20,946 nucleotides of DNA from a virus, in IMG/VR virus record IMGVR_UViG_3300030090_000219, positions 1-20,946 of that record, one strand, 5' to 3'. Below, one piece after another: positions 11,815 through 20,771 of this stretch (positions are counted from its first letter, which is position 1; each line of letters begins with the position of its first letter). The notes beneath the pieces are model-generated. The model ran no database searches. It worked only from the letters and a program-made list of their open reading frames with translations, and was not told where the DNA came from. The translations under genes were made by a program, and so were the position numbers.

Positions 11815-13383
11815 TTAGTATCCAAATGTGGAGTCAGCTACTTGCATACCTGACGATGGTCTGCCATGCGGGTCGTAGTCGAAAATAGAGAACCTGGGTC
11901 TGGACATAATACCGTACCGGAGGGCATCATAAAGATGGTCTTCAGCTTTTGTGTCAACGTCTTCTGGATTTTTCTTGTCCAGAGGGATGGATGGTAGTTG
12001 ACTGACGACATTTGTACAGCTATTAAAGAATACAAGTCTTGGTTCCTCTGTAAACTCGTCTATCTGTAGACGCCTATGTATTTCGTTCTTGCCAGCCACC
12101 CGACTACCACGGCTTCTGTCTGATGGACGCCAACGGCATCCCCTGCCAATCATTTGCTCCGCAAGAGAAGGACCAGTATCGCCACGCTTGTGCCAAAGAC
12201 TACTGTCCAAAACACCATACTTAATATTTCCATCTTCTGCTTCCAAATCCAATATCATATCGGCCAAGTCTGTCGCCAACACCTTACTGACGTATAATTC
12301 TCTGTAGACGATAAGCTGCTCATCAGGTGCAACAGCAAACCAAAGAACACCAGAATAACTACCGTAACCATAGTCACATGCGCGAAACTTGACCCAGTTG
12401 CTAGGGATACGATAAGGCTCCACAACATGAACATCCCGATTAAACTCAGTAAACGCCGCGCCTTCTTTGATGTCCCAATCGCCTTCAAGAAGCTGCCTAC
12501 GTTGCTGTTCAGGAAGTGAGAGGAGCATGGCCTCGTAGTCTCCTGCTTGCGCAAGGTATGGGTTATCAGAAAGTCTTGCTGGGATGAACCTACGTTTAAA
12601 TAGAGACTTTCCAGCCTTGCTATGTCCTGCGGGATATTTAAGGACTTCTCCTGTTTCAACATCTGTTGCATCAAACGCTCTATTATATGGGGCAGGGTCG
12701 ATGAACATCTTTTTGACCCACTGATGTCCCCGACCACCGGGGTTAGTTGTCGCCCTCATAAAGATAGGCAAGTCTGGTGCAGTGGACCGTAGACGACTTC
12801 GCATGTAGTTCCATGCATATGGTGTGGACCATTGTGTCAGTTCGTCAAAGCCTATCCAGCTAAATGCCAGACCCTGATAACGCAAGACATCCTCATCCCT
12901 ATCTAGGTAGGACATCCACAACCTTGCACCAGATGGCGCAGTCCACTGCATCTTCCGTTCTGACCACTTAATGCCCGGCCAGATTTTTGGGTACAACTCC
13001 TGCGACTTAAATATCAGTTCTCGCAGTTCTTCCGTTGTATGTCGAAGAAGCAATCCACTAAACTGAGGATGCCCCATGTAACGAAGTGGGTCAGCCAGCA
13101 TGGCATAACTCTTACCACCACCAGCACTACCACCGTACAAAACTTCCCGTTCACTCGCCGCTAGAAACTCTGTCTGTGGCCCTTCGTTTGGTTTGAACAA
13201 AACATTAGCATGTTCTTCAATGCTAGATGTTTCACGTGTAACTTCTTTTATCTCAGGCTGTTGCTTTTTTGCGCTTTGCGCCAAGCCTTGTTTCTTCGAT
13301 TTCTTTCGCTTTGGCAATTGCCTTTTCCGCATAGTCTGCCCACTTGCGGAGGCTTGCAGCTTGGTTCTTACGCTGTCGCTCAT
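11815..13383 (-). CDS. terL: Terminase large subunit (ATPase and nuclease), 522 aa
   Basis: The DNA-packaging motor. Walker A is GGSAGGGKS (about residues 84-92) and Walker B ends AFSWIGFDE with the catalytic acid at about 181; the coupling motif TTNPGG lies near 212. The nuclease domain shows FRACDYGYG (D337), YGVLDSSLW (D393) and AEDHLYDALRY (D482/D486), the three acidic clusters of the RNase H-like fold, with GDWD at 301-304 between the domains. The N-terminal 45 residues are very basic and low in complexity. The ATG at 13383 would overlap the upstream gene by 131 nt; a second Met at codon 18 (13332) still overlaps, and no good SD decides the start. Everything from about residue 50 onward is secure. 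Confidence 0.95.
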   Translation of the reverse strand: MSDSVRTKLQASASGQTMRKRQLPKRKKSKKQGLAQSAKKQQPEIKEVTRETSSIEEHANVLFKPNEGPQTEFLAASEREVLYGGSAGGGKSYAMLADPLRYMGHPQFSGLLLRHTTEELRELIFKSQELYPKIWPGIKWSERKMQWTAPSGARLWMSYLDRDEDVLRYQGLAFSWIGFDELTQWSTPYAWNYMRSRLRSTAPDLPIFMRATTNPGGRGHQWVKKMFIDPAPYNRAFDATDVETGEVLKYPAGHSKAGKSLFKRRFIPARLSDNPYLAQAGDYEAMLLSLPEQQRRQLLEGDWDIKEGAAFTEFNRDVHVVEPYRIPSNWVKFRACDYGYGSYSGVLWFAVAPDEQLIVYRELYVSKVLATDLADMILDLEAEDGNIKYGVLDSSLWHKRGDTGPSLAEQMIGRGCRWRPSDRSRGSRVAGKNEIHRRLQIDEFTEEPRLVFFNSCTNVVSQLPSIPLDKKNPEDVDTKAEDHLYDALRYGIMSRPRFSIFDYDPHGRPSSGMQVADSTFGY

Positions 13384-13663: not shown

Positions 13664-13853
13664 TATATCTTTCGTTTAAATATCTTATATAATCGCTTGC
13701 ATTTTTCTTTGTAGGTTTTAGTGTGCCGGGTTTTAAGTATCCTTCAGCTTGCAATTTTTTATACGCAATAACATGCGCTTGTTTTTTTGATACACCATCT
13801 CTAATTAAGACGCCTACTAATCTTCTAAAAACCTTTGGTGCTTTAGTCTTCAT
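13620..13853 (-). CDS. Small basic conserved-type phage protein, 77 aa
   Basis: A 77-residue basic protein with a helical N-terminus (RRLVGVLIRDGVSKKQAHVI) and the segment LKPGTLKPTKKNASDY. It lies between the putative small terminase and the HTH protein, overlapping the former by 11 nt and the latter by 44 nt, so all three are probably translated in a coupled way. I recognise the GVSKKQAHVIAYKKL pattern from small marine-phage proteins of unknown function. Nucleic-acid binding is possible from the charge but not shown. Confidence 0.65.
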   Translation of the reverse strand: MKTKAPKVFRRLVGVLIRDGVSKKQAHVIAYKKLQAEGYLKPGTLKPTKKNASDYIRYLNERYNEQNSRKMEATTTH

Positions 13854-14217
13854 CTTCTACCACGGCTTTAGGCGGCATAAGCATCACACCACCAGATGCC
13901 TCAACTTGCATCTTCTCTGTCTTTACAAGACCAACGCGGTCAAGCAGTTCCTTGGCTGCAACCATCTTATCACGGATGCCAAGTTCAGTCGGGTCATACA
14001 GTGCGCCGGTCATTGCCATAGCGGCCTTTGGTGCATTACGTGCCATATACATTTGTGTGGCCTCAAGAATTTCTTCTTTTAATCCTTTGACAATCTCTGT
14101 GGTAGAACTGGTATCAGAGTATCCTGCAAGTTTTTTGGCGGTAGCCATATTGCCACCTGCCTCATCAAACAGCACATCAAGAAACACTTGTTGCTTACCT
14201 GTCAATTCTCTAGCCAT
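13843..14217 (-). CDS. Putative terminase small subunit, 124 aa
   Basis: The product starts MARELTGKQQVFLDVLFDEA and continues GGNMATAKKLAGYSD, an N-terminal helix-turn-helix arrangement like that of phage small terminases (LT-x-KQ-x-F, followed by A-x-x-AGY). The C-terminal AAKELLDRVGLVKTEK is also characteristic. Small terminases recognise viral DNA and load the large subunit. The frame is open from 14241, but ATG 14217 has GGAGAG 5 nt upstream and overlaps the lysozyme stop by 8 nt. It is separated from terL by two small genes, an uncommon but known arrangement. Confidence 0.75.
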   Translation of the reverse strand: MARELTGKQQVFLDVLFDEAGGNMATAKKLAGYSDTSSTTEIVKGLKEEILEATQMYMARNAPKAAMAMTGALYDPTELGIRDKMVAAKELLDRVGLVKTEKMQVEASGGVMLMPPKAVVEDED

Positions 14218-14701
14218 TAAACTCTCCGTGATGCATAGCATGTGCGAGTTTTGTTGCCCGTGATTTTACCTGATTTGCCCACCTGCTGTCAAGCATTTCT
14301 TTTGCTGCCACGTCAAATTTTTCTTCGTGTATACCCGCCCACATTTTTTTGAACTTACAAAGACGCGGCACACCAAGATTAAATGCCATGTCTATCAGGA
14401 TAAGCTGACGTACAGCGTCCAGCTTCTCTACGCAAGGATGCGCACGGAGAAGTTCCTCTTCGACAATCTGTACGTCATTCTGTGCCAGAAACATAGCATC
14501 TGCCTCAGTAATACCATATTCATATACATGGTCAATACTAGGGATATCCAACTCATCCAACTCTTCTTTAGAGATGCCACGGTCCTGAAGATTCCTACCA
14601 ATACCAATCGTATCAATACCCAGTGTATCCTTGTACACTTGAAGGCGCAAACCCTCATGTGCCACAAGTTTTTCCATCAGTTTGTCTTTATCATATTTCA
14701 T
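14210..14701 (-). CDS. T4-type lysozyme endolysin (GH24), 163 aa
   Basis: The catalytic triad of T4 lysozyme is conserved with exact spacing: E16 in HEGLRLQVYKD, D25 in the same stretch and T31 in GIDTIGIGRNL (9 and 6 residues apart, as in T4 E11/D20/T26). The C-terminal lobe has LILIDMAFNLGVPRLCKF and LDSRWANQVKSRATKLAHAM, matching the family. The enzyme cleaves the MurNAc-GlcNAc bond of peptidoglycan at lysis. No signal peptide is seen, so export needs a holin. The start is ATG 14701 because it overlaps the stop of the upstream membrane protein (ATGA); an in-frame ATG at 14719 lies inside that gene. Length is standard. Confidence 0.93.
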   Translation of the reverse strand: MKYDKDKLMEKLVAHEGLRLQVYKDTLGIDTIGIGRNLQDRGISKEELDELDIPSIDHVYEYGITEADAMFLAQNDVQIVEEELLRAHPCVEKLDAVRQLILIDMAFNLGVPRLCKFKKMWAGIHEEKFDVAAKEMLDSRWANQVKSRATKLAHAMHHGEFNG

Positions 14702-18449: not shown

Positions 18450-18655
18450 AGATTGATACCCTTTGCTTCAGCTTCTTTGCACTTATACCGATAAGTGTGT
18501 GGCTGTGGGAATGCCATTTGCATAGTTGTGACCATCTGATGCACACGCATCACACATTCAGCCTCAGTCTTGTACGGACCATACTCATCTTCTGCTTCAA
18601 TGCACATAGTCGGCTGCGACATTAAACATGCCAATACAACTGCTTCAAACATCAT
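18446..18655 (-). CDS. Small exported Cys-containing protein, 69 aa
   Basis: A 69-residue protein with a short hydrophobic N-terminus (MMFEAVVLACLMSQPTMCIE) and four Cys at about 10, 18, 34 and 59, the last three in contexts TMCIEAED, EAECVMRVHQ and YKCKE. Small secreted-type proteins with this pattern (ACLMSQP followed by C, then a C-x6-8-M helix) occur in marine phages. If residues 1-16 are a signal peptide or anchor, the mature part is periplasmic with disulfides. Start and stop overlap neighbours by 11 and 4 nt. Confidence 0.7.
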   Translation of the reverse strand: MMFEAVVLACLMSQPTMCIEAEDEYGPYKTEAECVMRVHQMVTTMQMAFPQPHTYRYKCKEAEAKGINL

Positions 18656-18860
18656 CAGTGTCCTTCCATCCTTCGGCTTTCATTGCAGCCTCAACGTGTT
18701 TCAATGTGAAAGGACGACCATAATGTGCCTCCACAGCTTGCCTTACATAGAACACATCACTGTGGGGTATATGCAAATTATGTAATGTGTTGTTCTTGAT
18801 GGCATCATAGAATGCATCCAACACATTGTCTGTGTATAGTTTTACAGATTTCTTTCCCAT
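18645..18860 (-). CDS. First gene of the leftward operon, small protein, 71 aa
   Basis: The product begins MGKKSVKLYTDNVLDAFYDA and continues with FYVRQAVEAHYGRPFTLKHV followed by EAAMKAEGW. The C-terminal half suggests a winged-helix-like or other small helical DNA-binding fold, but no firm family is recognised. A TTG two codons earlier (18866) is an alternative start; neither has a strong SD. The gene lies about 120 nt downstream of the leftward promoter at 18989-19018, so it is the first product of the late cluster and could be regulatory. Confidence 0.65.
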   Translation of the reverse strand: MGKKSVKLYTDNVLDAFYDAIKNNTLHNLHIPHSDVFYVRQAVEAHYGRPFTLKHVEAAMKAEGWKDTDDV

Positions 18861-18906
18861 TGTCAACTACTTTTTTACAATTGATACAGATTAGTCCAGT
18901 AGGGGG

Positions 18907-19366: not shown

Positions 19367-19488
19367 ATATAATTAACGACCCCTAACAATGTTAGACACG
19401 ACTAACTTTTTAAGCAAAGCCTGCATGACATAACCAGTACATAGCAGGAACAAAGCTACCGACACCTTATATATATAATAAAAGCTGC

Positions 19489-19525
19489 GTCAATATCTTG
19501 ACACTCACCATGTCAAATCTTTGAC
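19489..19525. promoter_or_regulatory. Two tandem 14-bp palindromic operators, GTCAA-N4-TTGAC
   Basis: GTCAATATCTTGAC (19489-19502) and GTCAAATCTTTGAC (19512-19525) have identical 5-bp arms and 4-bp spacers, with centres 23 bp apart, about two helical turns. This is how paired sites for a dimeric repressor look. A minus-strand TTGACG, N16, TATAAG arrangement (19466-19493) overlaps the first site. The binding protein is not identified in the window. Confidence 0.6.
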
Positions 19526-19681: not shown

Positions 19682-19710
19682 TTGACTAACTGAATACCGC
19701 GAATTAGAGT
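19682..19710 (+). promoter_or_regulatory. Candidate rightward promoter
   Basis: TTGACT (19682-19687) is followed after exactly 17 bp by TAGAGT (19705-19710), 5/6 and 4/6 matches, with an AT-rich ACTAAATAAATA directly upstream. RNA would start near 19717, giving a leader of about 350 nt through the self-complementary region before the gene at 20067. Confidence 0.5.
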
Positions 19711-19759: not shown

Positions 19760-20035
19760 TGTTGGTCATCATCACCCACACTATAAAACAGCCCCAACAG
19801 CACCCAAAAGGTGCAGGCACAAAACGATGGCAGGTGGAAACATGAAATCCCTGTGGGTGGTATAGACCATAATGCACTGGAGGTGCGCCTAATTACCTGA
19901 CCTACCCTAACGCCTATGCGCCTAGTTAGCCATACGGTGAGGTCGAAGCGAGAGGGTATCGGGTAGGTCGGAGAGTGCCAGGACGGGGGTGGACTATGCC
20001 GCGCAGCGGGTATGCCACATAGAAAGCCCCCATTC
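19760..20035 (+). ncRNA. Predicted structured non-coding RNA or long structured leader
   Basis: About 275 nt with dense complementary segments and GC above its surroundings. Pairings seen by eye: TGTTGG (19760-19765) with CCAACA (19794-19799); CACCCACA (19773-19780) with TGTGGGTG (19852-19859); GCACC (19800-19804) with GGTGC (19810-19814); GCAC (19874-19877) with GTGC (19883-19886); GACCTACCC (19899-19907) with GGGTAGGTC (19961-19969), or alternatively GACCT with AGGTC (19940-19944); CTAAC with GTTAG inside; and a nested final hairpin (19985-20031). The first two and some others exclude each other, so alternative folds exist. No reading frame, tRNA or known RNA class was recognised. The strand is chosen because of the upstream promoter and downstream gene. 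Confidence 0.55.
19985..20031 (+). terminator. Nested hairpin closing the structured region
   Basis: GGGGG (19985-19989) pairs with CCCCC (20027-20031) and CTATG (19994-19998) with CATAG (20018-20022), with 4-nt internal loops on both sides (TGGA and AAAG); inside, CCGC (19999-20002) pairs with GCGG (20006-20009). It is followed by ATTCTTTAAT, a weak U-tract, so it could be a terminator, attenuator or 3' end of an RNA. The downstream gene begins 36 nt later. Confidence 0.5.
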
Positions 20036-20066
20036 TTTAATCAATAACTAACCAAGGGGTGACGCT

Positions 20067-20771
20067 ATGTCATACAATCTTATTGGGGTTGGCAGTAATG
20101 CCAAGACTGTGAAGGGTGATGGGTCAGAGTACGTAACAGGTATTATGTACCTCAAGCCCTTCAAGACTATTATTGAGGGCAAGACATTCAATGTGTGTGC
20201 ATTGGCTGAGAAAGCACAATGCCACAAAGGCTGTCTTGTATCTGCTGGGCGAGGTAAAATGTCCAGTGTTCAGCGTGGGCGTGAACGCAAAACCGTGTGG
20301 TATCATACTGACCGCATTGGGTTCATGGATGCGCTTATAAACGACATAACTATTTTCAGACGTAGGCAACGCAAGAATGGTGTGCAACCATGTGTGAGGC
20401 TTAACGGTACGTCTGACATATTGTGGGAAAAGGCTGGCATCATGGAGCAGTTTCCTGATGTTCAGTTCTATGACTACACAAAAATTGTGGCTAGGGCTTA
20501 CAAGCCTATGCCTAGCAATTATCATCTGACGCTATCATATAGTGAGGCAGATGCTGACTATGCAGAACAGGTATTGACTGCGGTACGGGATACAGGTATC
20601 AACGCAGCAGTAGTGTTCCGCGACAAGATACCCGCCACGTTCAAAGGGTTGCGGGTTGTGGACGGTGACAAGGATGACCTGCGATTCCTTGACCCGCAAG
20701 GTGTGATTGTCGGGCTGAAGGCAAAGGGTGACGCCAAGCACGATGACACTGGATTTGTAATCGACGCATAA
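20067..20771 (+). CDS. Gp88-type phage protein, 234 aa
   Basis: First rightward gene, ATG 20067 with AAGGGGTGA about 7 nt upstream. The N-terminal half has a Cys group, FNVCALAEKAQCHKGCLVSA, with C44, C52 and C56, then GRGKMSSVQRGRERKTVWYH; the C-terminal half has LTLSYSEADADYAEQVLTAV, a long VVDGDKDDLRFLDPQGVIVG and LKAKGDAKHDDTGFVID. This arrangement matches the 'gene product 88' family named from mycobacteriophages and common in marine phages and plasmids, whose biochemical role is not established to my knowledge. The Cys cluster suggests metal binding. Its place right after the control region suggests early expression. Confidence 0.72.
   Translation: MSYNLIGVGSNAKTVKGDGSEYVTGIMYLKPFKTIIEGKTFNVCALAEKAQCHKGCLVSAGRGKMSSVQRGRERKTVWYHTDRIGFMDALINDITIFRRRQRKNGVQPCVRLNGTSDILWEKAGIMEQFPDVQFYDYTKIVARAYKPMPSNYHLTLSYSEADADYAEQVLTAVRDTGINAAVVFRDKIPATFKGLRVVDGDKDDLRFLDPQGVIVGLKAKGDAKHDDTGFVIDA

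Follow-up and report, generated by a model that had tools for sequence, protein, structure and literature searches.

Which protein reads the two palindromes that lie between the divergent gene arms of virus record IMGVR_UViG_3300030090_000219? The record holds nothing beyond the stretch of 20,946 nucleotides analyzed here (positions 1 to 20,946, hereafter the window), a partial genome (20.9 kb) of a marine phage of the HMO-2011 type. Its large terminase subunit, TerL, encoded in the late arm (11815..13383, minus strand; phrog_979, E 3.5e-60), shares 86.6% identity with the HMO-2011 protein and 82-85% with its counterparts in the Roseobacter phages CRP-345 and CRP-1. A scan against PHROGs identified terminase, portal, capsid, and tail genes on the leftward side, with a likely small terminase subunit, TerS (13843..14241, minus strand; phrog_2538, a weak match at E 0.0017), directly before TerL. 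The late arm is headed by a gene whose product has 71 residues from its ATG (18645..18866, minus strand), as had been reported from the sequence, and the first rightward gene (20067..20771, plus strand) belongs to phrog_1617, related to Gp37/Gp68-like and GP88 proteins; homologues of it among solved structures were looked for and none was found. The gene content of relatives suggests that the rightward side is the early arm. With the leftward genes beginning at 18866 and the rightward gene at 20067, the region is divergent as originally described. The absence of a lysogeny gene, likewise claimed for the window, was borne out within this fragment, as none of the 20 ORFs scanned matched a PHROGs lysogeny family, and the repressor or integrase genes expected near a lysogeny repressor operator were not found among them.

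Box 1 (GTCAATATCTTGAC, 19489..19502) and box 2 (GTCAAATCTTTGAC, 19512..19525) are 14-bp palindromes with perfect arms, lying 23 bp apart from centre to centre. Both match GTCAA-N4-TTGAC exactly, as predicted, and they are the only exact matches in the window; 100 dinucleotide shuffles produced none (0 expected for either box), and a chance origin of the pair was rejected on this ground. When two mismatches were allowed, 13 matches were found in the window, which is the chance level; thus, the exact pair alone is special in the window. The search for further palindromes that had been proposed as a check gave no other exact one in the window, and pairs were present in part of the relatives.

Conservation was analyzed from both sides of the control region. 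A search with the first rightward gene returned 20 viral loci. Seven of them (L003, L004, L005, L007, L014, L015, and L016) possess two or three boxes at the corresponding position, 12 lack an exact pair, and 1 begins inside the gene and is uninformative. Alignment of 8 control regions showed no change in the arms of box 1, and none in the arms of the two common boxes apart from a damaged right-hand box in L004. The cores vary, the boxes are spaced at 18 or 23, and an additional box occurs in three regions; copy number in relatives ranges from 2 to 5. Conserved arms with variable cores were also seen in 18 distinct control regions, which had been chosen for having box pairs. Fixed arms (ten bases) combined with changes in the four-base core, the copy number, and the spacing are what a site bound by a dimer would be expected to show. 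The sites are real and look functional. Of the original prediction of a cooperative repressor site, a paired site for a dimer-type regulator is supported by the 7 of 20 relatives and the 18 regions; a cooperative repressor of phage origin is not.

On the late side, the first leftward gene has 261 relatives, the best 80 of which were used, and 52 upstream regions were left after removal of 25 with less than 900 bp upstream and of 3 duplicates. The boxes are patchy in this sample: two or more occur in 7 regions, one in 5, and none in 40, so that 12 of the 52 have at least one. Relatives both with and without boxes have a first leftward gene 100% identical to the window's; the box-less ones include L378, L382, L383, and L391, in which no box lies within 2 kb and the identity extends over the matched residues. 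Thus, its 71-residue product, which had been named as a possible regulator, is unlikely to be the reader and was rejected as such. In the box-less close relatives, homology to the window extends only 319-465 bp from the late gene and does not reach the boxes, which lie at 642-665 bp. It is deduced that the control segment was lost together with the boxes and that the boxes belong to an exchangeable control segment. Palindromes lost from relatives that keep the surrounding promoter elements, the pattern that had been named as contrary to the prediction, were therefore not what these relatives display.

Some neighboring features were noted in the same relatives. A further single exact site, GTCAACTTATTGAC, lies inside an early-arm ORF and is kept in three relatives (L003:5050-5063, L006:2992-3005, and G001:16713-16726). 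A distant relative with a first gene 55% identical has many CGTCAA/TTGACG half-sites in another arrangement (L017:2790-2960). The early arms of the box-bearing relatives L003 (3737-4837) and G001 contain a gene that by eye resembles cytosine-5 DNA methyltransferases, and a homologue was not found in the box-less G016. In the window itself, a G+C-rich leader precedes the first early gene (19885-20040); its predicted fold is strong with a z of only -1.40, and it has no Rfam match, and a known RNA family or an unusually stable fold was rejected accordingly.

The named isolates HMO-2011, CRP-1, and CRP-345 share gene order and the divergent region with the window, and their TerL proteins are 82-87% identical to it, but the box pair is absent from their divergent region. 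HMO-2011 has a single site at 23.6 kb, outside the control region, and CRP-1 and CRP-345 have none in these three HMO-type records. No exact site was found in 14 isolate records scanned whole in one batch, the named isolates tested being nearly all alphaproteobacterial phages. In a further 4 named-phage records, jumbo phages of Xanthomonas and Stenotrophomonas had 5 and 3 scattered sites and two phages had none. Every named isolate with a relationship to the window is a phage of alphaproteobacteria, hosts that are not known to have FleQ. In place of boxes, the control region of CRP-1 and CRP-345 (L280 and L282) contains TTTGTGATCACAA twice and a GTCCAAC(A/G)TTGGAC palindrome, and similar (A)GTCC-N-GGAC(T) palindromes occur in L009, L011, L012, L013, and HMO-2011.

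The motif is not confined to this lineage. Pairs of GTCAA-N4-TTGAC with a gap of 2-20 were found in at least 120 stretches of viral contigs, as against 15 stretches for the control motif CTGAA-N4-TTCAG and 17 for the flipped motif TTGAC-N4-GTCAA in the whole collection; the 23-bp spacing was counted, again over the whole collection, in 36 motif pairs versus 3 control pairs. The families at the control loci include integrases, repressors, and replication genes. The 120 viral matches listed and the window condensed to 76 distinct contexts. Naive ORF prediction, which gives a rough notion of "intergenic," put 84 of 121 first pairs between ORFs and 37 within them among the matches listed; the 8 of 76 contexts inside long ORFs were left out of the consensus and of the -10 peak and sigma-54 flank counts given below. 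The consensus of 221 boxes from the non-coding distinct contexts among the matches listed is YGTCAA-(A/T-rich N4)-TTGACR, and the same arm sequence occurs in unrelated phages with GC contents of 0.24-0.71 (among the matches listed). In the full contigs G001-G005 the main array stands at the divergence of the gene arms, and an additional single site is found elsewhere in each of G001, G002, and G003. The alignments A2, A3, and A4 consist of unrelated proteins and were used just as lists for family scans.

FleQ/FlrA is the master regulator in flagellar control in many bacteria and, together with c-di-GMP, also governs biofilm genes; it belongs to the NtrC family and has a Fis-type helix-turn-helix. 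FleQ-type proteins drive sigma-54 promoters. In published accounts, the FleQ box is given as GTCAAT/ATTGAC with two mostly A/T bases between the halves and as tandem at most biofilm genes (PMC10723142), with the consensus GTCaNTAAAtTGAC in Pseudomonas aeruginosa and GTCAaAAAAtTGAC in P. putida (PMC6120874), and the site of a Desulfovibrio FlrA-like protein is yGTCA-N6-TGACr (PMC4641369). The same papers describe a single FleQ box at flagellar operons and regulation of the pel operon via sigma-70 (PMC10723142, PMC6120874, PMC4641369), and ChIP-seq in P. fluorescens that yielded no robust FleQ consensus (PMC6120874).

Both window boxes fit the 14-bp GTCA-N6-TGAC inverted repeat exactly, and their cores, TATC in box 1 and ATCT in box 2, are A/T at three of four positions, which makes the centres A/T-rich. 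Compared by eye with the full P. aeruginosa consensus, box 1 agrees at 11 and box 2 at 9 of the 13 specified positions; the window cores agree with the FleQ consensus just in part. The 14-bp inverted repeat, the GTCA/TGAC ends, the A/T-rich centre, and the tandem copies resemble the box of the NtrC-family, c-di-GMP-binding FleQ at sigma-70 biofilm promoters of Pseudomonas (PMC10723142, PMC6120874), whereas the window boxes lie in a phage and have deviating cores. The FlrA-type site of Vibrio and of Desulfovibrio DVU2894, yGTCA-N6-TGACr, has the same flanking Y/R as the viral consensus; such sites are known upstream of flagellar or EBP genes, unlike the position at phage genes here (PMC4641369).

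At least 120 stretches with the pair were also found in cellular genomes, mostly sites of other regulators with fixed, often G/C-containing cores. Genus-specific pairs with fixed cores among the loci L145-L264 (ACGA/AGGT in Paenibacillus, GCGY in Curtobacterium, ACATC in Rhodococcus) are probably such sites. Pairs with A/T-rich cores occur near FliA/WhiG sigma-28 genes, assigned by a TIGR02479 match above the cut-off, in 3 of 15 cellular loci inspected among the matches listed (L215, L193, and L188), and flagellar regulators were therefore considered as readers. A neighbor of L179 was putatively taken for FliF by eye. The FleQ Pfam domain gave weak matches in 4 of 12 host genomes tested and was missing from the L193 genome with boxes near fliA.

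Sites resembling sigma-54 promoters were scored with a hand-made consensus matrix. Among the matches listed, sites above 12 bits within 300 bp pointed away from the arrays in 12 of 132 flanks versus 2 towards them, and above 16 bits the counts for the same flanks were 8 and 0; for the control loci the count above 12 bits was 1 of 61. The matches come from 10 loci, two of which (L031 and L139) have a site on each side. L139 is a relative of the window, its first leftward gene being 69.6% identical to the window's. Its sigma-54 promoters TTGGCACGATGTATGCA and TTGGCACGAAGTTTGCA, at 170 and 268 bp past the pair, are near-perfect (20.2 and 17.4 bits) and point at the early arm, which includes the GP88 gene; a third site of 15.8 bits points at the late arm. 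The two promoters are near-identical to each other and stand 98 bp apart downstream of the box pair (L139:8560-9260).

The window has no -24/-12 element near the boxes: the best leftward-pointing site reaches 5.9 bits, and a site at 20017 on the minus strand reaches 10.4 bits. No member of its lineage but L139 has a sigma-54 site above 12 bits, and a second set of 19 loci showed no enrichment (1 away and 1 toward, of 36 flanks). Among the 52 upstream regions (from the best 80 of 261 relatives), 9 have a sigma-54-like site above 14 bits and 8 of these are box-less, showing that single sites at that score are not rare. Given the null result of the second set, the lack of such elements in the window and its nearest relatives, and the sites in box-less regions, sigma-54 promoters are a feature of some box-bearing phages only.

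The promoter scan of the window found 5 promoters, barely more than the 3.8 expected in shuffles. It included TTGACT-17-TAGAGT (19682..19710, plus strand), a candidate early promoter of the sigma-70 type that lies 157 bp to the right of box 2; its TTGAC is kept in 8 of 8 aligned regions, and its -10 is variable. The possible -35 box that had been said to overlap one palindrome was found by eye within box 1 as TTGACG (minus strand, 19493-19488), 16 nt from TATAAG, which gives a weak candidate leftward promoter (19466..19493, minus strand); this pair is absent from the scan output, which lists another, weak leftward pair, and it is not conserved in L004, L005, or L007. An A/T-rich stretch, TATATATATAATAAAA (19467..19483), can be read beside box 1, and a TATATAT element is retained across the 8 aligned control regions. 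A repeat like TGCCTATTTTTTGTGCA lies beside the boxes in the control regions of L004, L005, L007, and L015 and also upstream of the first late gene in the box-less L378 and L383; it could be a late promoter element.

Taken with the published sites, the cellular FliA/WhiG context, and the sigma-54 promoters of L139, a host factor is the best fit of the three candidates that had been put forward, and it can be named as a FleQ/FlrA-type regulator. The sites, their conservation, consensus, and position, and the sigma-54 promoters of some box-bearing phages are observed; the reader, the host, and the sign of regulation are inferred. A host enhancer-binding protein of the FleQ/FlrA type is the most likely reader, ahead of a phage repressor, and we lean towards the view that the pair consists of FleQ/FlrA-type boxes read by a host protein. 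The pair would serve as a tandem binding site for an NtrC-family enhancer-binding protein with a Fis-type helix-turn-helix; one dimer would sit on each palindrome, and the two boxes would be bridged in the divergent control region. Once bound, the protein would control the rightward early promoter and, perhaps, the leftward late promoter as well. Its target in some phages would be a sigma-54 promoter, resulting in activation. In the window the sigma-70-like promoter is the lone candidate target, and control there would be similar to that exerted by FleQ at biofilm genes, with tandem boxes and sigma-70.

The chief alternative, which we regard as unlikely, is an operator pair for a phage-encoded dimeric regulator, repressor or activator, that is unrecognisable by sequence and controls a divergent early/late switch. 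Most full contigs mapped have one control region per genome, and the boxes travel with an exchangeable control segment, as an operator of this kind might. One phage with box pairs (G012, the contig of L044) also encodes a stand-alone 71-aa protein with an EBP-like Fis helix-turn-helix (L349:1423-1638; HTH_8, E 2.4e-10), which resembles the C-terminal domain of sigma-54 activators and has its best structure matches to Fis (E 0.04-0.2) and to FleQ (8p53, E 0.35); G015 gave a weaker HTH_8 match. However, these are 2 of 15 box-bearing virus records. The domain is absent from the other 13, including the closest relative, G001, which argues against a repressor of phage origin, and clustering of the box-bearing genomes showed no shared DNA-binding family. 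Moreover, identical arms in unrelated phages of such different GC contents are unusual for phage repressors. HTH_8 was likewise missing from 5 other records, namely G016 (no site), G017 and HMO-2011 (a single site each), and CRP-1 and CRP-345 (none), and a text-pattern search for such a helix-turn-helix found no more in 218 viral loci, most of them fragments. DUF7227 of L055 was looked for in named phages and found in none. Of other readers considered, SrpA of P. aeruginosa was rejected because it binds another palindrome, NTATC-N-GATAN (PMC5945682), and the readings as a Rex-like or a LexA-like box were dropped.

Readings of the pair as an origin, a packaging site, or promoter halves share most of the remainder after the FleQ/FlrA and phage-protein readings. 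It is improbable that the boxes are iterons of a replication origin, recognized by a phage initiator and adjoining an A/T-rich element for unwinding. An A/T-rich stretch does adjoin box 1, and some contexts among the matches listed lie near initiator or helicase-loader families. The O-like initiator gene of Pasteurella phage Pmp13 (L346) contains similar repeats, TGTCTAAATTTTTGACA, and these iterons are likewise inverted repeats set apart from one another, with A/T centres and GTC/GAC ends; however, their arms differ and they are placed inside the initiator gene. The window has just two copies, no O-like initiator was identified in its lineage, and iterons leave the sigma-54 promoters by the boxes unexplained. 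TGTCAAA-type half-sites were also observed near early or replication genes of pneumococcal phages (L345 and L347).

Very improbable, too, is a packaging site (pac/cos) read by TerS. Among the matches listed, 26 of 76 contexts have TerL no more than 4 kb away, with the array upstream in 21 and 17-35 bp behind TerL in 4 of the other 5, and the two control motifs have no terminase family among their 25 commonest. The head of the late operon is, however, a natural place for a promoter site too, and TerL is 6 kb away in the window. The TerS helix-turn-helix is nearly the same in box-bearing phages as in HMO-2011 and the CRP phages with no box there; TerS is therefore an unlikely reader, and this candidate was rejected because site presence does not follow the TerS helix-turn-helix. 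Least credible are overlapping sigma-70 -35 boxes alone with no regulator, a reading that accounts for TTGAC as the -35 core and for the weak -35 overlapped by box 1 and that was rejected because 133 outward flanks (among the matches listed) have no -10 peak at 16-18 nt, so that the box halves are not -35 elements, and because the flipped motif, which has identical TTGAC halves, is rare.

A literature search listed no report of FleQ with phage, of sigma-54 with phage, or of the motif as an operator or pac site. The host FleQ/FlrA-type reading implies that a marine phage may read host lifestyle through these sites. We tentatively extend it, as a possibility short of an even chance, to unrelated phage lineages that would independently have placed tandem FleQ/FlrA boxes, some with sigma-54 promoters, between their gene arms, so that the flagellar or c-di-GMP state of the host would gate infection; at least one of these phages has, besides, a stand-alone Fis-type helix-turn-helix protein that might compete for them. 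If this is true, the boxes would provide a rule for host prediction, pointing to hosts with FleQ/FlrA-type regulators, and a question for the bench would arise in pseudomonads, namely whether the same infection programme runs in motile and in biofilm cells. In a phage group that ranks among the most abundant in the sea, gene control would then be tied to an identified regulator of the host, one that responds to motility and c-di-GMP.
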